The translations under genes and the position numbers were made by a program. The notes under the pieces are model-generated. The model had not been told where the DNA came from. It did not search any database and saw only the letters and a program-made list of their open reading frames with translations. DNA of 42,415 bases from an uncultured Mediterraneibacter sp. (lineage in GTDB: Bacteria; Bacillota; Clostridia; Lachnospirales; Lachnospiraceae): positions 1-42,415 of the forward strand of contig CALWTQ010000029.1 in assembly GCA_944384505.1 (NCBI GenBank). The letters are read 5' to 3'. Shown one piece after another: positions 26,190 to 40,665 of this stretch (the first letter of the stretch is position 1; each line of letters begins with the position of its first letter).

Positions 26190-26486
26190 ATGAATATCAA
26201 TAAGAAAGCAGAAGGATCAACACTGTATATTTCTCTGGAGGGACGTCTGGATACGACGACGGCGCCTCAGCTGGAAGCGGAGATTAATCAGTCGATAGGC
26301 GGAGTTACGCTGCTGGAGATGGACTTTGAGAAGCTGGAGTACCTGTCTTCCGCCGGCCTTCGTGTGCTTCTGTCTGCGCAGAAGACGATGAATAAGCAGG
26401 GAAAAATGGTGATCCGTCATGTGAATGAAACCATTATGGAAGTGTTTGAAGTTACCGGATTCATTGACATTCTTACTATAGAGTGA
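26190..26486 (+). CDS. STAS-domain anti-sigma factor antagonist-like protein
   Basis: This 98-residue protein is a single STAS domain of the SpoIIAA/RsbV type. It has SLEGRLDTTTAPQLEAEI, then LEMDFEKLEYLSSAGLRVLL. Ser54 in SSAGL aligns with the Ser that RsbW/SpoIIAB kinases phosphorylate. In known systems the unphosphorylated form captures the kinase and a PP2C phosphatase resets it. Here no sigma factor is encoded nearby, but several RsbW-like domains and a SpoIIE-like phosphatase follow in the same operon. It is first in the operon. The start at 26190 follows AGGAGG; a longer frame from 26094 runs through the leader and is not favoured. Confidence 0.9.
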   Translation: MNINKKAEGSTLYISLEGRLDTTTAPQLEAEINQSIGGVTLLEMDFEKLEYLSSAGLRVLLSAQKTMNKQGKMVIRHVNETIMEVFEVTGFIDILTIE

Positions 26487-26494
26487 GGCGGAAG

Positions 26495-27886
26495 ATGAAG
26501 CAGGGAATGAAAATGAAACTGCTGGAGCAGGCGGCCCGGGAGGCCCGGGGGGATAAGAAAGTGGAGGATGTCATTGTCCTGCATATTAATCACTGCATGG
26601 ACAATTCTTTTTACTTCAATGATGTGCTGAGAAGCCTGTTCAGCCATGTGACCCTTCTGACCCCTCCCTATAACAATGAGGATATACCAGAAGGATACAG
26701 CGGGCCGTGCTATCACGGCATGCGGCAGGGCGGTCTCTATCACCTGATGAAGAACAGGGAGCAGCTGGGCTTAAGCAGTACGGAGTTTCTTGAGGCTGTG
26801 CTGCTCCTGGTGGAGGAGGCTTTCCGCAGGGAACTGATCCCGCTGATGCGCCGGGGAAAAAAGCTGTTAATCATTGAGGACGGAGGGTATCATTTTGAAG
26901 CCTTGTCCCGGGTAAAGCAGTTGTTCCCTGAAGTGGAAAACCAGATTATCGGGGTGGTGGAGCAGACCACTTCCGGTACGCGCAGGAGTATGAGCAGACA
27001 GGGGTACCGATATCCCTATCCCTGCGCAAGCATTGCACGCTCGGACATTAAAATGAATTTAGAATCTATTTTCATCGGACAGCGGATTGTGGAGGAACTG
27101 GGGCTGATGCTCTATGCGGCCGACGCCTTTTATTCCTTCCACACTGTGCTGCTGGTGGGGTATGGTATTGTGGGACGCAGCTGCCGTATGGCTCTGGAGG
27201 GGCACTTCTGTGAGCCGGAGGCTTATGACACAGATCCGCGGATGCTGAAGGCAGCGGAGGATGACGGGATGAAGACCTTTTTAAGCCCGGATCCTGAGAT
27301 GTTTTACAGGGATACAATTGTGATTGGCTGTGTGGGAGAGCCTTCTTTTGGGGAAGAGATGTTCCGGGCCTATCTTGAGGGAGAGGGGACGAATGTCTAC
27401 CTGGCCAGCGGTTCCTCAAAGGATGTGGAGTTCTCCTATTTCCTGCGGTATGTGGCGGGAAAAGAGCAGGAGATACCAGGACTTGTGCCTGAGGGGCAGG
27501 ATACGGCAGAGTGGTACAGCTGCTACAGATTCCGCTATGAAGGCGCAGAAAAAAATGTGTACCTGATGGCTGGGGGGAAGCCGGTGAACTTTTACCGGGA
27601 GGGCGTGATCAGCCTGACCTATAGGGTGATCGACCTGATATTTACGGAGATGCTCAGTCTGGCTCTCTATTTGTGCCGCAATCGGAATACTTCTCCTCAG
27701 CTGTATGTGCTGGGAGAGGACAATCCGATCACCCGGGCTGTCTCTGAGAAGGAGATGCTGGAATCCTGGTTCCGGGAAAATCATTTTTGGCGCCGGGGGG
27801 ATCTGGAAACATTTCTGCAGCCCCATCCTCTGGCCGGTGAACTGCGGAAAATCGTATGGGAGAAAGATTGTGGAGAAAATTATTAA
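26495..27886 (+). CDS. S-adenosylhomocysteinase-like NAD-binding protein with altered active site
   Basis: This 463-residue protein resembles S-adenosylhomocysteine hydrolase (SAHH) across the middle. LLIIEDGGYHF matches the DDGGD region, VVEQTTSGTRR matches EETTTG, and LLVGYGIVGRSCRMALEG with YDTDPR matches the NAD fold. The SAHH stretch TKSKFDNLYG is IKMNLESIFIG here, so the catalytic Lys appears lost and the Asp is Glu. The C-terminal Lys-Tyr cofactor clamp was not found. It may bind NAD or a nucleoside as a sensor, or catalyse something else. The start at 26495 is nine bases behind the STAS stop; GTG 26483 is less likely. Its end overlaps the next gene. Confidence 0.7.
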   Translation: MKQGMKMKLLEQAAREARGDKKVEDVIVLHINHCMDNSFYFNDVLRSLFSHVTLLTPPYNNEDIPEGYSGPCYHGMRQGGLYHLMKNREQLGLSSTEFLEAVLLLVEEAFRRELIPLMRRGKKLLIIEDGGYHFEALSRVKQLFPEVENQIIGVVEQTTSGTRRSMSRQGYRYPYPCASIARSDIKMNLESIFIGQRIVEELGLMLYAADAFYSFHTVLLVGYGIVGRSCRMALEGHFCEPEAYDTDPRMLKAAEDDGMKTFLSPDPEMFYRDTIVIGCVGEPSFGEEMFRAYLEGEGTNVYLASGSSKDVEFSYFLRYVAGKEQEIPGLVPEGQDTAEWYSCYRFRYEGAEKNVYLMAGGKPVNFYREGVISLTYRVIDLIFTEMLSLALYLCRNRNTSPQLYVLGEDNPITRAVSEKEMLESWFRENHFWRRGDLETFLQPHPLAGELRKIVWEKDCGENY

Positions 27887-29639
27887 GCGGACGTTTTTTA
27901 AATTTTTCGGGCCTACACTGGTGGCGTCGCTGGCCCTGGCCATTGTGTCCATGACCGATCTGGTAGTGGCGGGCCAGCTGCTTGGCAGCAGCGCGTTTAC
28001 GGCCATCAGCCTGGCTCTTCCGGTGACGATCTTCGTGCAGATTGTCACCGCGATATTCGGCGGCGGTGCAGGGATTGTGCTGTCGAACCTTCTGGGACAG
28101 GGCGAAAGAGAGCGCTGTAACCGTGTGTTTACCGCCGCGCTGGTTTCGGCTGTGGGCGTGGGCGTGGCAGCTGCCGTGCTGGGGCTGCTTTTTTTGGATC
28201 CTTTGATCCGGCTGCTGGGAGGCCAGCCCGGTGAAAGTATGGAATATGCCCGCTGGTATATCGGTATCTTGCTTCTGGGGATGCCTTTTTTAATTCTGGC
28301 GCCGGTTCAGCTGACTTTCCTGCGCAATGACAGTAATCCGCGGTATTCTATGTTCTGTGTGCTGGCAGGCGGTGTGTGGAACCTGATTGCCAATATTTCC
28401 CTTGTGCTTCTTTGCGGCCTGGGAATTGCCGGGATTGCCATCGGTACTGTCACTTCTCAGATGCTCAGCTGCGTGCTTTCCGGGCGGAAGCTCTACAGAA
28501 AGGAGAGCAGCTTCCACCTGACCAGGAAATGCTGGTCTCTCCGGGTTGTTCTGGAGATGGCCCGGCCCGGACTGCCTGCCGCTATGATCTTTTTCTTCCA
28601 GGTGGTGCTCACAGTAGTGATTAACCATACCCTGGCCGTGACCGGCGGCGACAAAGCCGTGGCCGTATATGCGGTGGTGAAGTATCTGATTACTTTCCTC
28701 TACGCTTTTTACGATGGCGTCACCGGCTCCATGCAGCCTATGCTGGGGATCTACAGAGGGGAAGGAGAGCTCGACAACCTGCGGCGCACGGTCTCGGTGT
28801 CCTTTAAAATCATGCTGATCATGTCAGTAGCCATCACTCTGGCGCTGGAGCTGGGCGCCCCGCTGATCTGCATGATATTTGGCGTGGAGCAGGATATGAT
28901 GGATATTACCATGGCGGCAGTGCGCATCCAGGCGCTGTTCTGCATCACTGCGGGGATACTGGCGTTTCTGGGAGCCTTTTACCGGTGTACCGGACATGCG
29001 GGCGCCGCAATGGTGATCGCCGTGTGCAATAATCTGATCTTCCCGGTGTCGTTCATCCTGCTTCTGGCGAACTTCACTTCCCTGGGAAGCAACAGTGTTT
29101 ACTGGGGGCTGGTGCTCACAGACTATGCTACGCTGCTGACTCTGTTTGGCGCGCTGCGGGTGCTGCGCAGGCCGGGGGAGTCCCCGCTTCTGCTGATTCC
29201 CGCGCAGGACAGCCAGGATAAGGGACCTGTATATCAGGTGCTTATTCAGGATAAATATGAGGATATTCCCAGAATCTCTGAAGAAATAGAGAATTTCTGC
29301 GAGGAGCATGGCGTTTCCATGAAAAAGCAGTATTACATTTCCCTGTGTATGGAGGAAATTGTGGTCAATGTCATTCAGATGGGATTCAGCAAAGACCGGG
29401 ACAACTATATTGACATCCGGGTTTCCGTGCTGCCGGAACAGCAGGTGGCTCTGCGCATCCGGGATGACGCGGTGGAGTTTGACCCCACCCGGTCCCGGGA
29501 AGCCCCGCTGGGAGAACTGCTGGGTGATTCCCACCAGGAGGATTATAATGAGCTGGGGCTGTATCTGGTAAAAAAGGTGGCCAGCTCCTATTCTTATAAG
29601 CGGACTGTGGGATTTAACGATTTTATGGTGGTGCTGTAA
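27870..29639 (+). CDS. MATE-family transporter fused to an RsbW-like HATPase domain
   Basis: The first 450 or so residues of this 589-residue protein form a MATE-type transporter with about twelve helices (TLVASLALAIVSMTDLVV, QLLGSSAFTAISLALP, IAGIAIGTVTSQMLSCVL). From about residue 455 a GHKL/HATPase domain follows, with N-box MEEIVVNVIQMG (near 492), G1 box IRDDAVEFDP (near 529) and LGLYLVKKV (near 560), ending YSYKRTVGFNDFMVVL. Such domains are the RsbW/SpoIIAB anti-sigma kinases. The fusion suggests the kinase state controls transport, or the reverse. The GTG start at 27870 overlaps the previous gene by 17 bases; GGGAGAAAG lies upstream. The longer open frame from 27705 lies inside that gene and is rejected. 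Confidence 0.88.
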   Translation: MEKIIKRTFFKFFGPTLVASLALAIVSMTDLVVAGQLLGSSAFTAISLALPVTIFVQIVTAIFGGGAGIVLSNLLGQGERERCNRVFTAALVSAVGVGVAAAVLGLLFLDPLIRLLGGQPGESMEYARWYIGILLLGMPFLILAPVQLTFLRNDSNPRYSMFCVLAGGVWNLIANISLVLLCGLGIAGIAIGTVTSQMLSCVLSGRKLYRKESSFHLTRKCWSLRVVLEMARPGLPAAMIFFFQVVLTVVINHTLAVTGGDKAVAVYAVVKYLITFLYAFYDGVTGSMQPMLGIYRGEGELDNLRRTVSVSFKIMLIMSVAITLALELGAPLICMIFGVEQDMMDITMAAVRIQALFCITAGILAFLGAFYRCTGHAGAAMVIAVCNNLIFPVSFILLLANFTSLGSNSVYWGLVLTDYATLLTLFGALRVLRRPGESPLLLIPAQDSQDKGPVYQVLIQDKYEDIPRISEEIENFCEEHGVSMKKQYYISLCMEEIVVNVIQMGFSKDRDNYIDIRVSVLPEQQVALRIRDDAVEFDPTRSREAPLGELLGDSHQEDYNELGLYLVKKVASSYSYKRTVGFNDFMVVL

Positions 29640-29666
29640 CCTGGGCGCCAGAAAGGATGAAATATC

Positions 29667-32042
29667 ATGAAGGAAATATTTACTGTTTTCCGAAAGAAAA
29701 GCGCATGGGGGCATATGGTGCTCAGCGCTGTGGTGTTTTTTGCCATAGCCCTGCCGTTTCGAAGTTTGTTCACCCTCCTGCCGGGGGTGACGGAGATCCG
29801 CCCGGCCAATATGGTTCCGGTGGTGTTTGGCATTCAGTTCGGCCCTGCGGCCGCATGGGGAATTTCGATTGGTAATCTGATTTCGGACATTTTGTCGGGA
29901 TCAAGCGCATTTGTGTGCCTGACCGGGTTTGTGGTTAACTTTTTTTATACTTATATTCCATACAAACTGTGGTACACGCTGCGGCTGGGGAAGGAGCCGA
30001 TTTATCCGGTGCGGTTAAATACGGTGCTGGAGATTGTCAAGTATATTCTGGTCGTCCTGATTGATTCCCTTGTTACTACGGTATCGCTTTCCTTGATTTT
30101 TGAGGCGGCGGGATTTCAGTCGTTTTTCTCCTCATTTCCGCTGCTGTTTTTTAACAATTTTGACTTTGCGATTATTCTGGGTATTCCGGTGCTTTCCTTC
30201 TGGAACAAGATGCATCTGCACTCTGAGATTCCGGAATACCGGGAAAACGCTCAGTTCCGGCACGGCGTCTGCTGGCTGGATCTGCCTTTAGCCGTTATCG
30301 CAGTTATCGGTGCGGGGTACTTCATCTATTCTCTGCTCCTGGGCGGAAATGCGGTCAACCCTTCTCTTGCGATGGGATTTCTGTGTGTGGCAATTGCCGG
30401 GCTGGCGGTTTACGCCTTCCGGCCAGCCGGCAGGGTGGAGCCTCTTCCTCCCCGCCGGGAGGAAGTGAAGTTCTCCATTAAGGCGAAGGTGACAATCGGT
30501 GTTCTGCTGCTGACTTTGGTATTTCTGGTTCTGCTGACCATTGTGTCCTATAATGCTTTAAATGTGGGCGGAGAGCTGAACCGGCTTGAGGTATGGAATT
30601 ACATTTATCTGGTACTGGGCATTACAATCAACCTCCTTTACGGCATCGCCATACTGTTCCTGTGGTATGTAGAGCGGAATATCACCACACCTGTTGAGCG
30701 CCTTTCTGAATTGACGGAGCTGTACGCAAAGCAGGAGCATGAGCATGAAGAAGACGTTGCACTGCGTCTGCAGCAGCTGGCGGATACGATTCCCCAGGGG
30801 GACGAGATCGGAGCCCTGGCAGTTTCCTTCCAGAACATGATGAGCGAGCTGGACGACTATATGGTGAATCTGGCGGCGGTGACTGCGGATAAAGAGAGGA
30901 TCGCCACAGAGCTGAACGTGGCTACGCAGATACAGGCCAGTATGCTGCCCTGTATCTTCCCGGCATTTCCCGAGCGCAGGGAGTTTGACGTTTACGCGGC
31001 AATGACTCCGGCCAAGGAGGTAGGGGGCGACTTCTATGATTTCTTCCTGGTGGACGATGATCACCTGGCTCTGGTGATTGCGGACGTATCGGGGAAAGGA
31101 GTGCCGGCGGCTCTGTTTATGGTGATCGCCAAGACCCTGCTGAAAAATGCCGCGCAGACCGGCATGTCTCCCAAAGAAGTGCTTGAGAAAGTCAATAACC
31201 AGCTCTGTGAAAACAATGACGCGGAAATGTTTGTCACTGTCTGGCTGGGCATTTATGTGATTTCTACGGGGAAACTGACCGCGGCCAATGCGGGCCATGA
31301 ATATCCGGCGGTTGAACGCAAAGGTGGAAAATTCGAGCTGCTGAAAGATAAGCACGGGTTCGTGCTGGCCGGTATGGAGAACGCCCGTTACCGGGAGTAT
31401 GAATTGGAACTGGCGCCCGGGGACACGCTGTTTGTCTACACCGACGGCGTGGTGGAGGCCACCGATGCGGCGAACGAGCTGTACGGTACGGACCGGATGC
31501 TGGATGCGCTCAATCAGAAAGAAGATCCGGATCCTGACGAGCTTCTTAAAACTGTGAAAAGAGATATTGACAGCTTCGTGGGCAAAGCGCCCCAGTTTGA
31601 TGATATCACTATGCTGGCGCTAAAGATCAAGGAAGTCCGGACGGAGAATATGAAAAAGATCAGTGTATCCCCGCAGCTGGAAAGCATTGACCAGGTGACT
31701 GCCTTCTTCGAGGCGTGCCTTGAGGAGCAGGAGGCTCCTGTGAAAGTGGTTTCGCAGATCGGCATTGCCGTGGATGAGATCTTCTCCAATATCGCTCGGT
31801 ACAGCGGGGCAACCTCGGTCTCTGTAGGCTGCCGGGCGGAGAAGAACCATGCGGTGCTCCGCTTTGAGGACAATGGACGGCCTTATGATCCGACCCAGAA
31901 GGCGGATCCGGACGTTACGCTGTCAGCGGACGAACGGGACATCGGCGGGCTTGGAATCTTTATGGTGAAAAAGACGATGGATGAGCTCACCTATGAATAC
32001 GTGGACGGGCGCAATATCCTGACTATTCAAAAGAGCTGGTGA
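29667..32042 (+). CDS. Membrane SpoIIE-type phosphatase with ECF-S-like, HAMP and HATPase domains
   Basis: This 791-residue signalling protein has, in order: an N-terminal membrane region resembling ECF transporter S components (VVFGIQFGPAAAWGISIGNLISDI), a further helix pair and HAMP-like linker (about 280-400), a SpoIIE PP2C phosphatase (about 410-650; GGDFYDF near 453, IADVSGKG near 472, VYTDGVVEATD, FDDITML near 645), and a C-terminal RsbW-like HATPase (about 655-791; N-box VDEIFSNIARYSG, G1 FEDNGRPYDP, GGLGIFMVKK, EYVDGRNILTI). Phosphatase and kinase modules with opposite effects on a STAS protein are thus in one chain. The ECF-S-like part may sense a small molecule. It lies 28 bases behind the MATE fusion. 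Confidence 0.88.
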   Translation: MKEIFTVFRKKSAWGHMVLSAVVFFAIALPFRSLFTLLPGVTEIRPANMVPVVFGIQFGPAAAWGISIGNLISDILSGSSAFVCLTGFVVNFFYTYIPYKLWYTLRLGKEPIYPVRLNTVLEIVKYILVVLIDSLVTTVSLSLIFEAAGFQSFFSSFPLLFFNNFDFAIILGIPVLSFWNKMHLHSEIPEYRENAQFRHGVCWLDLPLAVIAVIGAGYFIYSLLLGGNAVNPSLAMGFLCVAIAGLAVYAFRPAGRVEPLPPRREEVKFSIKAKVTIGVLLLTLVFLVLLTIVSYNALNVGGELNRLEVWNYIYLVLGITINLLYGIAILFLWYVERNITTPVERLSELTELYAKQEHEHEEDVALRLQQLADTIPQGDEIGALAVSFQNMMSELDDYMVNLAAVTADKERIATELNVATQIQASMLPCIFPAFPERREFDVYAAMTPAKEVGGDFYDFFLVDDDHLALVIADVSGKGVPAALFMVIAKTLLKNAAQTGMSPKEVLEKVNNQLCENNDAEMFVTVWLGIYVISTGKLTAANAGHEYPAVERKGGKFELLKDKHGFVLAGMENARYREYELELAPGDTLFVYTDGVVEATDAANELYGTDRMLDALNQKEDPDPDELLKTVKRDIDSFVGKAPQFDDITMLALKIKEVRTENMKKISVSPQLESIDQVTAFFEACLEEQEAPVKVVSQIGIAVDEIFSNIARYSGATSVSVGCRAEKNHAVLRFEDNGRPYDPTQKADPDVTLSADERDIGGLGIFMVKKTMDELTYEYVDGRNILTIQKSW

Positions 32043-32085
32043 TGCACATGCGGGCGAGTCCTGAAAAGAAAAAGGAGATGAAACC

Positions 32086-32814
32086 ATGCTCTGCATGATA
32101 TGTGATGATCAGGAAAGTGAGATTGAAACAATAAAGCGAAGCGTCATGGAATATGCGCGGGAGCATCCGGAGCTTTCCCTTAAGCTCCGGTGCTTTTTGA
32201 GGCCGCTGGATATGCTTGCGGATATTAATAAAAGCGGCGCTCCCGACATCGCGCTGCTGGATATCTGTATGCCCGGCGTGCTCGGAACCGAAGTCGCGCG
32301 TGAAATTCAGAGTAAAAGTGAGGGCAGCGCCAATATTATTTTCCTGACCAACAGTTCTGATTTTGCAGTGGAGGCATTTGCCCTTCACGCTGATGACTAT
32401 CTGACGAAGCCTTATACGAAGGAGAGGCTGGCAGACACACTGGACCGGGTAATCAAAAAGCGGCGGCAGTGCGCCTACGTCCCTATCCGGTGCGGAAGTG
32501 AGATTCACCGGATTGATTTGTACTCTGTTGTGTACGCGGAAACAGAAAATCACAGCGTGGAGATCCATCTGCAGTCGGGAAAATGCTTGAAAACGCGCAT
32601 CACTCTCACCGGGCTGAGAGAGCTGTTCGGCGCTGTGGACGGCTTTATCACGGTCGGCGCTTCCTATCTTGTCAATCTGCGCTGTGTGCAAAGCGTGCTG
32701 TCCACGACGCTGCAAATGACAAATGGTGATATAGTACCTGTTCCCAGACGGCTTCGCAGCGAGGTGAAAAAGCAGTATTTTGATTTTTATACACAGGAGG
32801 CTACCGTTCGATGA
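32086..32814 (+). CDS. LytTR response regulator (AgrA/ComE type)
   Basis: This 242-residue protein has an N-terminal receiver domain (ICDDQESEIETIK, phospho-acceptor Asp in LLDICMPG near residue 58, TKPYTKERL) and a C-terminal LytTR DNA-binding domain (YVPIRCGSEIHRIDLYSVVYAE, FITVGASYLVNLRCVQSV). It pairs with the histidine kinase gene that overlaps its end by four bases. Together they resemble Agr-type peptide-sensing pairs. They sit inside the transporter/partner-switching run and may control it. No AgrD-like peptide gene was seen. Confidence 0.92.
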   Translation: MLCMICDDQESEIETIKRSVMEYAREHPELSLKLRCFLRPLDMLADINKSGAPDIALLDICMPGVLGTEVAREIQSKSEGSANIIFLTNSSDFAVEAFALHADDYLTKPYTKERLADTLDRVIKKRRQCAYVPIRCGSEIHRIDLYSVVYAETENHSVEIHLQSGKCLKTRITLTGLRELFGAVDGFITVGASYLVNLRCVQSVLSTTLQMTNGDIVPVPRRLRSEVKKQYFDFYTQEATVR

Positions 32815-34109
32815 TTCATCTGGCTTTGACTATGGGGCTGCTGGCTCTGACTCATGTCTTATGCCTTGCGGCAATATCCGAACGAAAATATTCTGTCAGA
32901 AAGACGATACTGGTTTATGCGGCGTTTTGCGCTGTTTTTATCGGGTGGACACAGGCTGTTTTCTTTTTTTTCGGCTCTGAGTCGCCTTATACGGCGTTCA
33001 CCAGTTTTTCTGTTATTATAATAGCCTTTTTTGTCTTTATTCTGACCTCGGCTGACGCATTCTGTAAAAAGGTTTTTCTGTTTATCAGCTATTCTAATTT
33101 CTTCTGCATCTTCTTCTGTATTGCTGCTCTGGCGGGAGATGCAATGTTCCCTGCGCTGTCCGAAACAGGGACGCTCTATATAAGGAACATAATCAGAACC
33201 CTGTTATATCTGCCCGCTGTCTTTGTATATCTGAAGTTTTTGCGCGTTCGTATCCGTGCGGTGCCGGGGACAAAGAAGCGGACATGGTATTCCATCTCTC
33301 TGGTCTCAGTGTTGTTTCTGACTGTTTTCACATCATTTGTAGTGCTTTTCTATCTGAGCCGCAGTCATACGGTTGAAAATGTTTTTTTGTTTGCGGCGGT
33401 CGTGCTGATCTACTGCTCGGTGCTGTGGATCATTTTTGGAACGATCCGGTATATGACCAACGAAAGTAAAATGGAGCAGGTCAGCAAAAATGCGGAATAT
33501 CTGCAAAGACAGCTTGCGTTTACAAAAGAGAATGAGCGGATGGCAAAAACTATCCGCCACGATATCCGGCACCATAACCAGAATATCGCCGCGCTGCTTC
33601 AAAAAGACGACATAAAGGAGGCTCTGCGTTATATCAGACAGTATGATGATAGCCTGGAGGCGTCAAAACCGAAGGAATTCTGCCCTCATGTTACGGTCAA
33701 CGCAATCCTGAGCCAGTTTTCTGCCAGGGCGGAAAAAGAGGGAATTCCGGTTTCTATATCTGTTGATACGCCCGAAAAGTCACCCATTGCTGACATGGAT
33801 TTTGTGGCGGTCCTTTCAAATCTTCTGGAAAATGCCTTAAACGGATGCCGGGAATGTGGCTCACACGGGGAAATCCGGGTGAATATCCGGGAAGTTGCAG
33901 GCAAGACCGTGATCGTGTGCAGCAATCCATGTAAGCCTGATCTGGCCGTTAAAAATGGCATGCTCCGGGAAAAAGGCACCGGGATCGACAGTGTGATTCT
34001 TGCTGTCAGAAAATACGACGGGGATATTCGCTATAAGTTGGAGAACGAATATCTGACCGTATGCGTAATTCTCAATGCTGACCAATTACGACAAAAAAGC
34101 AGCCAATAA
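32811..34109 (+). CDS. GHKL sensor histidine kinase (AgrC type)
   Basis: This 432-residue kinase has six or seven N-terminal membrane helices (to about residue 215), a coiled dimerisation stretch, the phosphorylation motif TIRHDIRHHNQNIAALL near residue 248, and a GHKL ATP-binding domain with N-box VAVLSNLLENALNGC and the late G-box EKGTGIDSV. It belongs to the AgrC/ComD-like family, which senses peptides or lipids. It is translationally coupled to the regulator gene. Its HATPase domain is a normal histidine-kinase type, distinct from the RsbW-like ones around it. Confidence 0.92.
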   Translation: MIHLALTMGLLALTHVLCLAAISERKYSVRKTILVYAAFCAVFIGWTQAVFFFFGSESPYTAFTSFSVIIIAFFVFILTSADAFCKKVFLFISYSNFFCIFFCIAALAGDAMFPALSETGTLYIRNIIRTLLYLPAVFVYLKFLRVRIRAVPGTKKRTWYSISLVSVLFLTVFTSFVVLFYLSRSHTVENVFLFAAVVLIYCSVLWIIFGTIRYMTNESKMEQVSKNAEYLQRQLAFTKENERMAKTIRHDIRHHNQNIAALLQKDDIKEALRYIRQYDDSLEASKPKEFCPHVTVNAILSQFSARAEKEGIPVSISVDTPEKSPIADMDFVAVLSNLLENALNGCRECGSHGEIRVNIREVAGKTVIVCSNPCKPDLAVKNGMLREKGTGIDSVILAVRKYDGDIRYKLENEYLTVCVILNADQLRQKSSQ

Positions 34110-34143
34110 TGACAAAGCCGTCCATGCAGGCGGCTTTGTCACT
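34108..34143 (+). promoter_or_regulatory. Hairpin after the histidine kinase gene
   Basis: GACAAAGCCG (34111-34120) pairs perfectly with CGGCTTTGTC (34131-34140). The stem can extend outward by six more bases with one mismatch. The sequence after it is ACTATTATAG, too poor in T for a confident intrinsic terminator. It may partly separate the two-component genes from the downstream genes. Confidence 0.6.
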
Positions 34144-34191
34144 ATTATAGAGGGACAGATAGCAGAAAAAGAGGAAGGAGGGGCAGCATTG

Positions 34192-34914
34192 ATGAGAAAA
34201 CTGCGGATAACAGCAGTGTTTTTTTCATTGCTCATGGCGGGAACAGTGACCGGATGCGGGGAGAGTCCCCCTGACAATGACACGCTGTGGAAGGCAGCTA
34301 TGACTGATGCGGTTTTCAGTGAAGATGAGGAAATCCAGGAACTGGTGACACTGACAAAGGAGGATGGCCGGGTCATATGGGATGAGGCAGGGAAGAGAGT
34401 GCTGCTTCTAACCTGGCATGACTACGCAGATCCTTGTGCGCCCGGCGGTTCTATTCTGACAGACTACGGGGATATCTGGGCAACGTCTGCCGGGGAGATG
34501 CAGGAGTGGTATGAGGGGAATCACGATGGAGTCGATGACTGGGAGCTGCGGTTTGCACAGCTTCTGGGCGTCCATGAGGACGAAGGCTATACCAGGTTCA
34601 CCGCGTTCTGGGTACCTGTGGAGAATGTGATACGTCCTGCCTATGTCACCGATGTGACCAGCCAGATGGAAAACGACTATGCCATTGTGACAGATGAGTC
34701 ATATAAGGAATGGTTTGACAACAATATCCTCTGGTCTTACTTTGAGAGCGACTATCCCTGGACTCGGCTCGGGTATACTTATGACTGGAGCGGCGGAGAA
34801 TCGGAATATGGACTCACCGAATTCCTGGTCCGGGACGGAAGCAAAACTGAAATTGCCTTTACATATACTACAGCGGAGTTTGTGGACTGGCTGGAAGAGC
34901 AGACTGAGGGATAA
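34192..34914 (+). CDS. Uncharacterised lipoprotein
   Basis: This 240-residue protein starts with a basic N-terminus, a hydrophobic core and a lipobox-like VTGC (Cys22), so it is probably anchored outside the membrane. The rest is acidic and rich in Trp and Tyr (WHDYADPCAPGG, EWYEGNHDGVDDWELRF, YDWSGGESEYGL). I do not recognise a family. It follows GGAAGGAGGGG; the longer frame from 34075 would run through the hairpin. Its position between the two-component pair and the transporter fusions suggests an extracellular sensing or inhibitory role, but nothing in the sequence proves it. Confidence 0.7.
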   Translation: MRKLRITAVFFSLLMAGTVTGCGESPPDNDTLWKAAMTDAVFSEDEEIQELVTLTKEDGRVIWDEAGKRVLLLTWHDYADPCAPGGSILTDYGDIWATSAGEMQEWYEGNHDGVDDWELRFAQLLGVHEDEGYTRFTAFWVPVENVIRPAYVTDVTSQMENDYAIVTDESYKEWFDNNILWSYFESDYPWTRLGYTYDWSGGESEYGLTEFLVRDGSKTEIAFTYTTAEFVDWLEEQTEG

Positions 34915-34935
34915 CTAAGAAGGGAGCAATCAGAT

Positions 34936-35133
34936 ATGAATATTAATTGTGACAATAAACGGGAATGTCCGTGCACCTATGACTGTCCGCGGCACGGAAA
35001 GTGCTGCGCCTGCGTGGCTCATCACCGGGACCACAACGAAGGGGTGCCGGGATGCTTCTTTTCTAAAGAGGCGGAAGCGACTTACGACCGGAGTATCGAA
35101 GCTCTTGCCAGAGATCACGGAATAATCAAATAG
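34936..35133 (+). CDS. Small cysteine-rich protein (DUF6485-like)
   Basis: This 65-residue protein is packed with Cys: NCDNKRECPCTYDCPRHGKC, then CAC, and later VPGCFFSKEAE. From memory the pattern matches a small conserved family annotated DUF6485 in gut Firmicutes, with the ending FSKEAEATYDRSIEAL. Eight Cys and several His could bind a metal. It has its own GGGAG site and is 14 bases from the next start. The function is unknown. Confidence 0.75.
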   Translation: MNINCDNKRECPCTYDCPRHGKCCACVAHHRDHNEGVPGCFFSKEAEATYDRSIEALARDHGIIK

Positions 35134-35147
35134 GAAGTTTATTAGAT

Positions 35148-36764
35148 ATGAAACGAAAAACAAAAAAACTTGCGGGCCGGGAGCATCTGGTGACGCTGAA
35201 TGCAGAAGGGATAGACAGTCTGTCCGCATTGGCAGTGGAAGCGCTGACTGAGGCGGGAACAGACCATAAGGATGTCGTCCGTCTGCGGCTGGCTGTGGAA
35301 GAGATCCTTATGGTGTGGCGCGACACGCTTGGGGAAGATGTGGACTGCGTCTTCCGGTGCGGTTCCCGCCTGGGCCGCATGTACATTGAAATCATAGTCC
35401 CCGGCATGCGGATGGATCCCGGTGAAACCGAGGACGAAACGGGGGGAATCCTCTATTCCAGTCTGCTGGCTCAGGCGGGGGTTTCACCGATATACAGCTA
35501 CAGAGACGGCCAGAATCATCTGGCACTGTATCCGCCAAATCCACAGCGTATGAATCCGCTGGTACAGCTCGTCCTGGCAATTGCGGCGGCTGCTCTGTGC
35601 GGTTTTCTCTGTCTGGCGCTGCCGAATCCGGTGAGGACGGCGGCAGAAGCGGCAGCTGAGCCGCTCTTTACTGCGCTGATGGGAATTATACAGACGCTGG
35701 CCGGGCCGATGGTCTTCCTAAGCGTGTGCTGGGGCATTGTATGTATTGGCGATGTGCAGGTGCTGGGCCGGATCGGACGGACGATTATATTGCGTTTTAT
35801 AGCGGCTATATATGTGACAGCAGGGATCTCCGCTCTTTGTCTGGTATGGCTGTTTCGGCCGGAAGACGGAATTGCTGCATCGGGAGAAAATGCTGCCGTG
35901 CAGATTTACAGCATGATCCTGGGGATTATCCCTGATAATATTCTCTCTCCGTTTCTGGAAGGAAATTCCCTGCAGATTATATTTATGGCGATCTGTGCTG
36001 GGCTGGTTTTGCTTTTACTCAAGGAAAAACTGCCGGTTCTCTGTGCCCTGGTCGAACAGCTTAATATCGCCGTACAGTTTATGATGGAGACAGTGAGCCG
36101 GTTCATACCGCTGTTTACGTTTGTAAGCCTTTTTACAATGATCTTGTCTGACAGCCTGACCGGGCTGGGCGGAGCGGCGAAGGGACTCATCCTTGCTGTG
36201 TCGGCCTGCGTGATATGGCCCTTGATCTACGCGCTTGCAGCGTCTCTGCGGCTGAAGGTATCTTATCCCATGCTGCTGCGAAAACTGCTTCCCACATACC
36301 TGACTGCACTGGCCACGGCGTCTTCATCTGCCGCACTGTCCCTGAATCTGGATACCTGTGAGAATAAGCTCGGCATCTCCGAGCGCATCAGCCGGTTTGC
36401 AGTCCCTCTTGGACAGGTGATCTTTAAAACCGGGGCAGGGACAGGATTTTTTGTATTGGCAATGGGACTTGCAGAGTATTACGGAGTGGCTATGCCTCTT
36501 TCATGGGTGGTTAAAGGAGTGCTTACATCCGGCCTGCTGGCCATTGCGGCGCCGCCGGTTCCCGGAGGCAGCCTGACCTGTTATACGGTACTGCTGGCCC
36601 AGCTGGGAATTCCTGAGCAGGCTGTGGCTCTGGCGATTGCGGGAAATGTAATACTGGACTTTTTTATGACATCCTGCGGAGTATCCTGTCTGCAGTCGGA
36701 ACTGCTGCTGTCAGCAAAACAGCTGGGACTTCTGGATGAAGGCATACTGAAAAAGGAGGAATAG
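35148..36764 (+). CDS. Dicarboxylate/amino acid:cation symporter with N-terminal HATPase-like domain
   Basis: Residues 1-125 of this 538-residue protein look like a degenerate RsbW-like HATPase. LRLAVEEILMVWRD stands for the N-box but lacks its Asn, IIVPGMRMDP stands for G1, and the domain ends IYSYRDGQNHLALYPP. From about residue 133 a DAACS (GltP/DctA) membrane domain follows, with the Ser-rich TASSSAALSLNL, LGISERISRFAVPLG and APPVPGGSLTCYTVLL. The cation motif NMDGT reads TGAGT here, and the Arg that binds substrate carboxylate is replaced (DFFMTSCGV). Transport of an unusual substrate or a sensor role is therefore possible. It begins 14 bases behind the Cys-rich gene. Confidence 0.85.
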   Translation: MKRKTKKLAGREHLVTLNAEGIDSLSALAVEALTEAGTDHKDVVRLRLAVEEILMVWRDTLGEDVDCVFRCGSRLGRMYIEIIVPGMRMDPGETEDETGGILYSSLLAQAGVSPIYSYRDGQNHLALYPPNPQRMNPLVQLVLAIAAAALCGFLCLALPNPVRTAAEAAAEPLFTALMGIIQTLAGPMVFLSVCWGIVCIGDVQVLGRIGRTIILRFIAAIYVTAGISALCLVWLFRPEDGIAASGENAAVQIYSMILGIIPDNILSPFLEGNSLQIIFMAICAGLVLLLLKEKLPVLCALVEQLNIAVQFMMETVSRFIPLFTFVSLFTMILSDSLTGLGGAAKGLILAVSACVIWPLIYALAASLRLKVSYPMLLRKLLPTYLTALATASSSAALSLNLDTCENKLGISERISRFAVPLGQVIFKTGAGTGFFVLAMGLAEYYGVAMPLSWVVKGVLTSGLLAIAAPPVPGGSLTCYTVLLAQLGIPEQAVALAIAGNVILDFFMTSCGVSCLQSELLLSAKQLGLLDEGILKKEE

Positions 36765-36766
36765 AT

Positions 36767-39469
36767 ATGAAGCGGGCCAGGATAACGGGACGGCTTCTCT
36801 GTATTGTCTGGATATTGAGCATTTTCTGCCTGATGCTCGGCGGATGCGGCGCATCTGCTCAGGGCTTTGCGGAAGAATCTGCGGAAGAACCTGTTACCGA
36901 TATCCGGCAGCTGGACGGAAAAGCGATTGGAGTGCTGACCGGTTCCAGCTTAGATGTCCATACTGACAATCTGATTCACAATGCGGACAAGCAGTATTAT
37001 GACCGCATTCCGGATCTGGCTCTTGCGGTGGAACAGGGAAAGATTTCCGGTTTCTTAATTGATGAGCCTATTGCACGCACCCTGTGTTTAGAGAACAAAG
37101 CTGTGACATACCTTCCCGAGATCCTGGTAGAGGAGAGCTATGCCGCCGCCTTTTCCAGGACGGAGCGCGGCGCTGCCCTGAGGGACGAATATAACGAGTA
37201 TCTGGCTAAGATCCGCTCGGACGGTACGCTGGAAGAAATAGACGGGATATGGCTGGGTGCTGACGAAAGCAAAAAAGAAGTGGAGAACTGGACGTCCTTC
37301 CCCGCGGATAACGGCGTCGTCCGGATGGCGGTTAAAACGGATGTGGAGCCTTTCTGCTATATCAAAGATGGCAATATCGTGGGATATGATGTTGACATAA
37401 TGGCCCGCTTCTGCAGAGAGTACGGTTATGGGCTGGAAGTGATCAGTACGGAGCTGTCTTCCATTTTTGCCGGCCTTTCTACCGGGGCATATGATGTATC
37501 GGCCACGGGACTGACTGTGACGGAAGAGCGGGCGGAAAGTGTGAACTTTTCGGATCCCAATTACATCGGCGGGATTGTAGCGGTTGTGGCGAATCCGGAT
37601 CAGACGCAGGTTCAGGAAGGCTTCTGGCAGGGGCTGTCCGACAGCTTTCGCAGGAATTTCATAGAAGAAGCCCGCTGGAAGATGATCTTATCCGGTTTGG
37701 GTGTAACTTTTGTCATTTCGATATGTTCTGCTCTGGCGGGGACGGTGCTGGGCTTCGGCCTGTGCCTTATGCGCCGCAGCAGAAAGAGGATCCTGTCGGG
37801 GATCACAGCTGCCTTTATACGCCTGATTCAGGGTATCCCTGTGCTGGTGCTCTTAATGGTGCTGTTTTACGTCGTATTTGCCAGCGCAAGGCTGGATGGA
37901 ATCGTTGTGTCAGTGATCGGCTTTTCTATTAATTTTGCCGTCTATGTTTCTGAAATGATCCGTACGGGCATTAATGCAGTGGACGCCGGACAATGGGAAG
38001 CGGCCGCTGCTATGGGTTTCGGCCGGGTCAGGACATTTACGAAAATTATCGCGCCGCAGGCGGCACGGCATATTTTGCCGGTGTACAAAGGCGAGTTTAT
38101 ATCCATGGTAAAGATGACGTCAGTGGTGGGATACATCGCGGTGCAGGATCTGACTAAGGTTACGGATATCATCCGCAGCCGGACCTATGAGGCGTTTTTC
38201 CCTTTGATTTTAACCGCCGTTCTCTATTTCCTGCTGGCCTGGAGTCTGACACTGCTGCTGGGACTTGTGGAAAAGAAGGTAGATCCCCGGCGGCGGAGCC
38301 GGGTGCCTAAGGGGATAGACATGAATTTAGTCCCGCAGGAAGAAACGTGGAAAGACGCGGACAGCGTACCCTATAAGGGGCCGGCGATCAGGATTATGCA
38401 TTTGAAAAAGGTATTTGACAGTGTAACTCCCTTAAAGGATGTCAATGCCTTGATCAGCAGAGGAGAGATTATCTCTATTATAGGCCCGTCAGGAACCGGG
38501 AAAAGTACCCTGCTGCGCTGCCTGAACCGGCTGGAGACGCCGACGGACGGGAAAATCGAAGTGTTCGGCCAGCCGGTAACCGGCGTAAAAGCGTCGCAGC
38601 TTAGCGCTGTCCGCCGGCGTATGGGAATGGTGTTCCAGAGCTTTAACCTGTTCGCCCACCTGACGGTGATAGAAAATATCATGCTGGGACCGGTAGAACT
38701 GCTTGGATGTACCCGTCAGCAGGCATACGAGCGGGGGATGCATCTGCTGGCACGTGTGGGGCTGGCAGAAAAGGCTCTGAATTATCCTGACGAACTCTCC
38801 GGCGGGCAGAAGCAGCGCGCCGCCATTGCGCGTACTCTGGGTATGCAGCCGGAGATCGTGCTTTTTGACGAGCCGACCAGCGCACTGGATCCGACGATGG
38901 TTGGAGAAGTGCTGTCAGTTATCCGGAGGCTGGCCGGACAGGGACTGACCATGCTCATAGTGACCCATGAGATGAAATTCGCCCGGGATGTGTCTACACG
39001 GGTGTTTTATATGGATGAAGGAGTCGTTTACGAAGAAGGTGTGCCGGAGCAGATATTTGAGCATCCCAGAACCGGCCGGTGCCGGGCGTTTGTCCGCCGG
39101 ATGAAGACCTTCCATCTCGATATTACTTCCAGGGCGTTTGACTTTATCGGCGCGGCGACTGACATTGAGCTCTTTGCCCACAGACAGCTGCTGAGCGCGC
39201 AGCAGTCACTCAAGTACCAACAGATCTTTGAAGAACTGTGCATGACATGCATTCTGCCGACTCTGCCGGACAATGACTGCCGCCTGAGTTTTGACGCTCT
39301 CTGCAGCGAGGACGGCAGCGAATGCGAGGCGGTCATCCAATGGCAGGGGGAACCGTTTGACCCGCTGACGCAGGGGGATGACCTGGGCGTAGTCCTGGCT
39401 GTGAGCCGGACGAAGAGCAGGAAGCACGAATATGCGGATGGAGTCAATACAGTGACAATTGAGTTTTAG
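36767..39469 (+). CDS. Single-chain polar amino acid ABC importer with permuted binding domain and C-terminal HATPase remnant
   Basis: This 900-residue lipoprotein-signal protein (lipobox LGGC, Cys27) contains a whole importer. Residues about 45-165 match the second half of an amino-acid binding protein (LDGKAIGVLTGSS, LIDEPIA, DGTLEEIDGIWLG). About 180-285 match the first half (VRMAVKTDVEPFCYIKDG, GYDVDIMARF, NFSDPNY). A GlnP-type permease follows (about 300-495), then a GlnQ-type ATPase (about 540-775; GPSGTGKST near 573, LSGGQKQR near 678, VLFDEPTSALD near 699). The tail (780-900) is HATPase-like: FEELCMTCILP, WQGEPFDPL, LGVVLAV, HEYADGVNTVTIEF. It starts two bases after the symporter stop. 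Confidence 0.88.
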   Translation: MKRARITGRLLCIVWILSIFCLMLGGCGASAQGFAEESAEEPVTDIRQLDGKAIGVLTGSSLDVHTDNLIHNADKQYYDRIPDLALAVEQGKISGFLIDEPIARTLCLENKAVTYLPEILVEESYAAAFSRTERGAALRDEYNEYLAKIRSDGTLEEIDGIWLGADESKKEVENWTSFPADNGVVRMAVKTDVEPFCYIKDGNIVGYDVDIMARFCREYGYGLEVISTELSSIFAGLSTGAYDVSATGLTVTEERAESVNFSDPNYIGGIVAVVANPDQTQVQEGFWQGLSDSFRRNFIEEARWKMILSGLGVTFVISICSALAGTVLGFGLCLMRRSRKRILSGITAAFIRLIQGIPVLVLLMVLFYVVFASARLDGIVVSVIGFSINFAVYVSEMIRTGINAVDAGQWEAAAAMGFGRVRTFTKIIAPQAARHILPVYKGEFISMVKMTSVVGYIAVQDLTKVTDIIRSRTYEAFFPLILTAVLYFLLAWSLTLLLGLVEKKVDPRRRSRVPKGIDMNLVPQEETWKDADSVPYKGPAIRIMHLKKVFDSVTPLKDVNALISRGEIISIIGPSGTGKSTLLRCLNRLETPTDGKIEVFGQPVTGVKASQLSAVRRRMGMVFQSFNLFAHLTVIENIMLGPVELLGCTRQQAYERGMHLLARVGLAEKALNYPDELSGGQKQRAAIARTLGMQPEIVLFDEPTSALDPTMVGEVLSVIRRLAGQGLTMLIVTHEMKFARDVSTRVFYMDEGVVYEEGVPEQIFEHPRTGRCRAFVRRMKTFHLDITSRAFDFIGAATDIELFAHRQLLSAQQSLKYQQIFEELCMTCILPTLPDNDCRLSFDALCSEDGSECEAVIQWQGEPFDPLTQGDDLGVVLAVSRTKSRKHEYADGVNTVTIEF

Positions 39470-39489
39470 AAGAAAGAAGGGAAACCGTT

Positions 39490-40665
39490 ATGAAATCGAA
39501 CGAAGTTGTATTATCTAACAGCCTGTCAAGCGCCGTAAACGCGCTGCAGGAAGTGGAAGAGGCGTCCGAACGGGCCGGGCTGGAGCGGGAACAGGTGAAT
39601 GTACTGCGGCTGCTGACCGAGGAAATGATCGCCATGACCACAGATATCCTGCAGAACTGCCGGGGAACTCTGTGGATGGAGTGGGAAGGCAGTGCCTGTG
39701 AGCTGCATCTGACCGCATCGGCGCCCATTGAGGAAAAGGCTAAGGCCGCGTTTATCGAGGCGTCCAGGGCCAAAGTGAACGCACCGGTTAAAGGGCTGAA
39801 AAATAAGATCAGTGCCCTGCTGGCGGGAATGCTCAGCAGTGGGGACTATCCTGAGCTGTATGCTTCTATGAGGGCCGGATTCATCGGCATGCCCTCTATG
39901 AGTATGGCGCCAACCTGGTCGCTGACTGCATATACAAAAGGGCAGGAGAAGGAAGAAAAGGACGCCGAGATGGAGGGGGTGGAGAAATCCATCCTGACCG
40001 GCCTGGCGGATGATGTTGTGGTATCCGTGAAAAGCCACTGGGTGGAGCTGGTGGTGAAAAAACATTTTGGGGGGCCGGCACAGGCAGCGAGGCCGCAGTT
40101 TACCGGCCTGTCCCATGTGTGTATTTTTGTGGACGATATGATGGAGGCAGTCTCCTATTATCAGAAACTTCTCGGGGCCATACCGGATCATTATCTGCCG
40201 CACTGGAAAAATAAGGGCTTCTTTAAAGCTGCCGGTTTTATTAAGGAAGCGGCGGACGGGGATGTTTCCATCGCGTTTCTTAATGTTCCCGGAACTAAGC
40301 TGACGCTGGAGCTCATGCAGTATCATTATCCGGAAGGCCGGAAAGAGCCTGTGTTTTTTGCAGCTAATGATGTCAGCGGCGCCCGCCATGTAGCGCTTAA
40401 AATCACAAATATTGATGAGGCGTTCGAGTATATTAAGTCCATGCCGGATACCAGGCTTATCAACGAGAGTGAGGACTACCGCGTCTTCCAGATCAGTGAA
40501 ACCACGCCGGAAGATGTGGTATTCTTCGATCAGGACTTAAGAGAACGGGACGAGAGAAATACGAATACAGCCAGAATCCTCAGCGGGGTAAAGTATTTCT
40601 ATTTCATAGATAAATACGGCCTTCAGTGGGAATTTGAGCAGGGGCACTCGGATATAGGGGACTGA
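39490..40665 (+). CDS. HATPase-like/VOC (glyoxalase-fold) fusion protein
   Basis: This 391-residue protein has two parts. Residues 1-195 resemble a degenerate RsbW-like ATPase: LRLLTEEMIAMTTDIL at the N-box position, a long insert with MPSMSMAPTW, and the closing LADDVVVSVKSHWVELVVKK. From about residue 208 a vicinal-oxygen-chelate (glyoxalase/dioxygenase) domain begins, LSHVCIFVDDMMEAVSYYQKLL, and runs to KYFYFIDKYGLQWEF. VOC domains bind metals or small ligands; His in SHVCIF and Glu in LQWEFEQ are candidate ligands. I infer a soluble sensor or decoy partner for the STAS protein. It is the last gene of the tight run and is followed by hairpins. Confidence 0.78.
   Translation: MKSNEVVLSNSLSSAVNALQEVEEASERAGLEREQVNVLRLLTEEMIAMTTDILQNCRGTLWMEWEGSACELHLTASAPIEEKAKAAFIEASRAKVNAPVKGLKNKISALLAGMLSSGDYPELYASMRAGFIGMPSMSMAPTWSLTAYTKGQEKEEKDAEMEGVEKSILTGLADDVVVSVKSHWVELVVKKHFGGPAQAARPQFTGLSHVCIFVDDMMEAVSYYQKLLGAIPDHYLPHWKNKGFFKAAGFIKEAADGDVSIAFLNVPGTKLTLELMQYHYPEGRKEPVFFAANDVSGARHVALKITNIDEAFEYIKSMPDTRLINESEDYRVFQISETTPEDVVFFDQDLRERDERNTNTARILSGVKYFYFIDKYGLQWEFEQGHSDIGD

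Follow-up and report, generated by a model that had tools for sequence, protein, structure and literature searches.

What does a partner switch control when no sigma factor lies beside it? Partner switching is known chiefly as a way of freeing sigma factors, and a few other outputs are known. The question is raised by contig CALWTQ010000029.1 of an uncultured Mediterraneibacter sp. (Lachnospiraceae), the whole of which (42,415 nucleotides; contig C29 in a genome of 3.95 Mb and 141 contigs) we call the window. Between positions 26190 and 40665, it carries ten genes, all on the plus strand and mostly closely spaced or overlapping, the largest intergenic gap being the 233 bases located 5' of a DAACS symporter gene. 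A first-pass annotation, made from the sequence alone, had proposed that a STAS protein, a SpoIIE-type phosphatase and five RsbW-like HATPase domains form here a switch built around transporters. We demonstrate that this gene set is real and conserved, and propose transporter-linked partner switching as a new form of a known type of switch. Three unrelated transporter families carry kinase-like domains, dead for the most part in two of them, that have the look of receivers for one switch protein. If true, gut-associated bacteria would adjust uptake and efflux rapidly at the post-translational level, GHKL pseudokinases would offer a clear example of domains acting as readers, and a partner would be predicted for many proteins annotated by sequence as plain transporters.

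By sequence, the run encodes the parts of a partner switch, i.e., a STAS protein with a conserved serine, a kinase of the RsbW/SpoIIAB type with an intact ATP site, and a PPM phosphatase of the SpoIIE/RsbU type. The STAS protein (26190..26486; Pfam STAS 6.5e-14) is a separate protein of 98 amino acids, not fused to a transporter, and it matches TIGR00377 (anti-sigma factor antagonist) at 67.8 bits, above the cut-off of 53.45. Its candidate phosphorylated residue, Ser54 (codon at 26349-26351), is kept in 28/28 aligned rows and in 58/58 rows of a second set. Kinase and phosphatase are found in one protein (29667..32042), which consists of a QueT-like membrane domain, a HAMP domain, a SpoIIE phosphatase domain (Pfam SpoIIE 8.6e-53) and a HATPase domain (31668-32033) whose ATP-site motifs are intact. 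The QueT match (31.6 bits, cut-off 33.7) and the HAMP match (20.9, cut-off 25) are both sub-threshold, and the sensor part varies by locus, being QueT-like in the window and dCache-HAMP in a related locus, L153.

The other RsbW-like domains are attached to three transporters and to a VOC protein. A MATE transporter (27870..29639, with a GTG start read at 27870) carries one at its C-terminus (29253-29609), a DAACS symporter (35148..36764; SDF 2.3e-62) at its N-terminus (about 35199-35525), and a one-piece ABC transporter of the amino-acid type (36767..39469, by Pfam) at its C-terminus (about 39104-39460), behind an SBP_bac_3 domain in two stretches, a permease and an ATPase. We refer below to these architectures as MATE-h, h-DAACS and ABC-h. 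The MATE C-terminus has a family match to HATPase_c_2/RsbW (3e-14). Sequence comparison establishes that the DAACS N-terminus and the ABC C-terminus are homologous to RsbW-type domains; the window's own DAACS and ABC domains are not matched by Pfam HATPase_c_2. The repeated attachment of such domains, as first proposed, is thus confirmed by sequence homology for the transporters and by fold for the VOC protein.

These domains had been taken as one repeated kind. They are indeed RsbW-like throughout; they are not equivalent. In the SpoIIE-linked HATPase, each residue checked is intact in 16/16 members of a first set, and the N-box Asn and G1 Asp are present in 4/4 of a second set; stand-alone HATPase domains keep this Asn in 21/25 (second set). 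The h-DAACS domains have the N-box Asn in 0/18 (first set) and 1/23 (second set), and the G1 Asp in 0/18. The ABC-h domains have the Asn in 4/35 and 2/17, two sets that overlap since L010-L031 and L112-L130 are partly the same genes, and the G1 Asp in 0/34 (one gap). MATE-h domains are intermediate, with the Asn in 16/32 and 3/8 and the G1 Asp in 22/32. The N-box Glu is kept almost everywhere it was scored (ABC-h, 34/34; MATE-h, 32/32; h-DAACS, 13 Glu and 5 Asp of 18). The window follows this pattern: its DAACS and ABC domains have lost the ATP-site Asn and Asp and kept the fold and the N-box Glu, and its MATE domain keeps the N-box Glu and Asn and the G1 Asp, with the G1 Gly replaced by Ala. 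These counts rule out five equivalent kinases. The DAACS and ABC domains are probably pseudokinases, the window MATE domain may be a kinase, and a division of labour between writers and readers is well supported.

The degenerate domains are under purifying selection. The omega values, rough because synonymous divergence (dS) is high, are 0.07-0.18 for the attached domains of ABC-h, 0.26-0.35 for those of h-DAACS and 0.08-0.13 for the N-terminal domain of the VOC protein. A quick tree, built from 168 domains and limited by few columns, many open forks and long DAACS branches, sets each transporter class apart by a branch (support 97 for DAACS-h, 94 for ABC-h and a weak 72 for MATE-h) and groups the SpoIIE-linked, STAS-fused and 33/35 stand-alone domains together (support 96). 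This suggests a single lineage of kinases alongside distinct lineages of receivers, with few attachments that were then kept. The extra domain of the DAACS proteins is also specific, being present in 20/20 N-extended DAACS fetched and in 0/19 ordinary DAACS. The former came from 25 matches with frames of at least 520 amino acids, own excluded, among which L125, L156 and L169 also have the domain and the remaining two were left out; an ABC row, L226, was excluded from the controls. For the ABC proteins, the domain's hidden Markov model (HMM) was found in 17/20 fetched loci (L128 at 20 bits only) and had no match in L127, L129 and L131. A 17-bit HATPase match in L187 was left uncounted. A Foldseek search with the whole DAACS model gave glutamate-transporter homologues among the best 50 matches listed, and is neutral on the fold of the N-terminal domain, whose predicted order of strands and helices resembles that of the VOC protein's N-terminal domain.

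The VOC protein (39490..40665) joins an N-terminal domain (about 39490-40068) to a VOC domain of the glyoxalase superfamily (Glyoxalase 1.9e-7). The GHKL/RsbW fold expected of the fusions appears in the predicted structure of this N-terminal domain, and its best structural matches are kinases of STAS proteins, SiaB being among the matches. Linking it by sequence failed: hhalign gave 0.5-9%, 0/18 members were linked, and it was not reached where the DAACS and ABC domains were. Some stand-alone relatives located beside STAS genes give weak matches (17-24 bits) with the ABC-h, MATE-h or DAACS HMM.

Is this neighbourhood conserved? We gathered 73 loci by a search with the VOC protein; they were selected by similarity to the window, so that their figures describe close kin, and many of their contigs end inside the locus. 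STAS is found in 42/73. Of these 42 loci, 29 also have SpoIIE and 39 have one or more domain-bearing transporters (MATE-h in 22, ABC-h in 19, h-DAACS in 16). None of the 31 loci without STAS has such a transporter. Views centred on single parts are less biased. In 40 stretches centred on STAS, from 40 genomes, an RsbW-like gene or domain is present in 32 and SpoIIE in 22. Around ABC genes, STAS lies within about 10 kb in 5/17 ABC-h loci vs 0/20 ABC loci without the domain. Moreover, STAS, SpoIIE-HATPase, h-DAACS and ABC-h occur compactly and in this order in L278-L281, from four genomes that belong to a different family and are among the eight h-DAACS genomes sampled outside Lachnospiraceae (below); the ABC gene is in two frames in L279.

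The pairing is seen more broadly at the level of whole genomes. In a family sample of 250 genomes (own included, hence 249 others), STAS, called at E <= 1e-5, is present in 93, own included. With the own genome excluded, all 19 h-DAACS genomes have STAS vs 18/49 of those with ordinary DAACS only (p 5e-7, a value that kinship inflates). For ABC-h, the figures are 14/14 genomes among the matches listed vs 78/235 others; the whole ABC protein, tried as census query, matches 250/250 genomes and is uninformative by itself. Taking h-DAACS or ABC-h together (ABC-h among the matches listed), STAS is found in 27/27 genomes vs 65/222 others, often unlinked. Outside the family, in a sample drawn from the whole order, STAS (E <= 1e-25) is present in 8/8 h-DAACS genomes vs 3/38 with other DAACS (p 6e-7, likewise inflated). 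These 38 comprise G415, whose 515-amino-acid DAACS frame at a contig end has no detectable domain, and 37 genomes sorted by frame length, those retrieved as loci having no domain match.

The reading that we favour, with moderate confidence, is a partner-switching module in which transporters and the VOC protein take the place of a sigma factor as outputs. A signal would be sensed by the QueT/HAMP/SpoIIE/HATPase protein, which would set the phosphorylation state of STAS at Ser54: the HATPase domain would transfer phosphate from ATP to STAS, and the SpoIIE domain would remove it. Unphosphorylated STAS would dock on the RsbW-like domains of the ABC, DAACS and MATE transporters, presumably on their cytoplasmic side, and on that of the VOC protein, altering their activity; phosphorylated STAS would release them. 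The DAACS and ABC pseudokinase domains could read STAS and could not write on it. The first-pass annotation had left it open whether STAS phosphorylation reports on transport or gates it. Since the DAACS and ABC domains lack the Asn and Asp and seem unable to use ATP, they would act as receivers, and gating fits them better; we infer, with good reason from the sequences, that STAS may gate transport. A wider view, which we put forward tentatively, is a multi-output post-translational network in which a STAS hub, set by the sensor kinase-phosphatase, would gate, via pseudokinase RsbW receptors, transporters and small-molecule enzymes dispersed through the genome. Related wiring is seen in STAS-APH, STAS-APH-HATPase and STAS-AMP-binding fusions and in links to nonribosomal peptide synthetase (NRPS) and GH3 genes.

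Several results weigh against the favoured reading. Conserved co-occurrence with transporters had been named as a check, and the neighbourhood is kept in close kin; physical linkage is not general, a linked transporter with the domain being found in just 7/40 STAS-centred stretches (L154, L155, L156, L161, L169, L176, L177) and in none of the other 33. Likewise, 18/20 h-DAACS stretches are without a nearby STAS gene, which is close by in 2/20; a 52-bit STAS match inside a 392-amino-acid open reading frame (ORF) of L124 was not scored as linked. As most STAS and h-DAACS genes lie apart, the evidence for their pairing is joint presence in a genome, which common descent can inflate and which for ABC-h comes from at least 14 genomes, those among the matches listed; among the eight genomes outside the family, five belong to one family and three of these to one genus. 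The degenerate domains change more rapidly than the proteins that carry them (omega of 0.04-0.06 for the ABC ATPase and 0.15-0.18 for the DAACS proper), the window MATE domain keeps its Asn and Asp, and the tie of the VOC N-terminal domain is one of fold alone, in a model whose confidence is intermediate. Sigma genes close to STAS in three relatives, described below, point the same way.

The intact residues of the MATE domain leave some room for the opposite flow of information, in which the transporters would be the sensors, the kinase activity of their HATPase domains tracking substrate flux and STAS phosphorylation reporting transport to a further target. MATE C-termini are cytoplasmic, and half of the MATE-h domains keep the Asn, the window's own combining it with the N-box Glu and the G1 Asp. 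We find this unlikely: Asn and Asp are gone in almost all h-DAACS and ABC-h, and a Pfam scan of the ten proteins of the run gave none of the known downstream targets of STAS switches, such as a sigma factor or a GGDEF protein. It also seems very unlikely that the attached domains are modules for oligomerisation or stability without functional tie to STAS, sharing a neighbourhood out of operon convenience. Their loss of kinase residues and the many h-DAACS stretches devoid of STAS would suit such modules; the presence of STAS in every h-DAACS or ABC-h genome (ABC-h among the matches listed), repeated outside the family, and the STAS-protein kinases that head the structural matches of the VOC N-terminal domain argue against them.

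Sigma control after all, in which the intact SpoIIE-linked HATPase would hold a sigma factor encoded elsewhere and STAS would be titrated by the transporter domains as side branches, is in our view rather improbable. The genome does hold 22 matches to sigma-70 region 2 (sigma70_r2). None is on the window's contig, and the only other STAS match of the genome adjoins its own RsbW-like and sigma genes, in the order expected for SpoIIAA/SpoIIAB/SigF. The statement that no sigma factor is encoded here therefore holds for the contig; it does not extend to three relatives in which a sigma gene lies within 2.5 kb of STAS, namely L156 (2.2 kb away) and L172 and L288, where sigma, RsbW-like and STAS genes stand in a row. 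The gene was confirmed by Pfam in L156 and L288; in L172 its identification is by phmmer. These are at least three of about 103 STAS-bearing stretches (42 + 40 + 5 + 2 + 14), a lower bound, as wrong ORFs stood for two of the 12 sigma seeds (L196, L201); one of the 15 first-scan matches (L127) was an artefact thereof.

How does the module compare with known switches? RsbU/RsbV/RsbW and SpoIIE/SpoIIAA/SpoIIAB of Bacillus share with it a STAS protein with a conserved Ser, a GHKL kinase of the RsbW type and a SpoIIE phosphatase; it differs from them by having no sigma match on the contig and RsbW-like domains, often dead, on transporters and a VOC protein. In canonical switches, unphosphorylated STAS binds the kinase (PMC11418112). 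In SiaABCD of Pseudomonas, a SpoIIE-family phosphatase, a STAS protein and a kinase resembling RsbW act on an output other than a sigma factor (PMC9239204). This output is a cyclic di-GMP enzyme, a diguanylate cyclase, whereas several outputs are proposed here. Two further non-canonical STAS switches are treated in PMC8256260: SypE/SypA of Vibrio fischeri, where SypE is kinase and phosphatase in one and the target of SypA is given as unknown, and BtrU/V/W of Bordetella, where phosphorylation of BtrV is said to promote binding, the opposite of the canonical case; the available portion of that paper describes neither transporter nor pseudokinase receivers for them. In CapK/CapS, an RsbW-like kinase with a conserved active-site Asn phosphorylates Ser54 of a STAS domain, the output being a DNA-binding repressor (PMC13373217); the window STAS protein has no winged helix-turn-helix. 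In SLC26/SulP transporters, STAS is fused to the transporter, while here it is free and the transporters carry the RsbW-like domains; the SulP protein DauA contacts DctA, a dicarboxylate carrier of the DAACS kind, which its isolated STAS domain does not bind (PMC5703999). Our literature search, which covered open-licence papers, brought up neither RsbW-like domains attached to transporters nor such a system, in agreement with the first reading of the locus.

The run contains four other genes. An adenosylhomocysteinase-like NAD-binding ORF (26483..27886) overlaps the end of the STAS gene; ahcY matches it at 2e-7, far below cut-off, and PDB adenosylhomocysteinases at about 1e-5; it is below the cut-off of every Pfam and NCBIfam family, and among the 73 related loci it is seen in L042 only. 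A LytTR response regulator (32086..32814, by Pfam) is paired with a GHKL sensor histidine kinase (32811..34109) of a different GHKL family, HATPase_c_5. A putative lipoprotein (34186..34914), read as such from its N-terminus, has no Pfam family above cut-off; homologues occur in 14/73 related loci, directly upstream of h-DAACS in 9 of those. Elsewhere in the same genome, L117:8906-11529 (G000:C24) encodes a second ABC-h transporter, with no STAS gene in the 17-kb stretch that contains it, and L246:8508-8927 (G000:C80) a 140-amino-acid RsbW-like gene adjoining an ORF with ferredoxin-like cysteines, with no STAS match in its 17-kb contig.

Several observations concern relatives of the locus. VOC domains 43-50% identical to that of the window, matched without the N-terminal domain, are found in Photorhabdus, Arsenophonus and Edwardsiella (L099, L101, L105); an ORF listing without annotation around those of Photorhabdus and Edwardsiella gave no substrate clue. 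A sigma gene, an RsbW gene resembling the VOC N-terminal domain and STAS follow each other in L172:8740-10217 and L288:7274-9360, 2 of the 13 examined VOC-less members of that domain; these RsbW genes represent a candidate new anti-sigma family, and some relatives of the domain may be true anti-sigma factors. STAS fused to APH-type kinase domains or to an AMP-binding enzyme is found near stand-alone STAS genes (L190:8327-9928, L177:8226-9803, L169:14043-15230, L183:10363-11541, L172:10287-12191), and the STAS-APH fusions of L190 and L177 have an additional HATPase. Four kinds of gene recur around STAS, each domain-scanned in one member. An NRPS of 2,600 amino acids with a terminal reductase-like domain, which we take to resemble the gut dipeptide-aldehyde/pyrazinone type, stands beside MATE-h, VOC, STAS and SpoIIE (L084:4-7830), and its ORF cluster is present in 12 of the 42 STAS loci, the window being among the 42. 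A GH3-family gene (L072:12735-14420) belongs to an ORF cluster found in 8 of the 42. Finally, a protein with PAS and Rce1-like (CAAX protease) domains lies near STAS in seven loci (L044:6884-7939), and a TMEM164-like membrane protein in five (L045:7028-7861).

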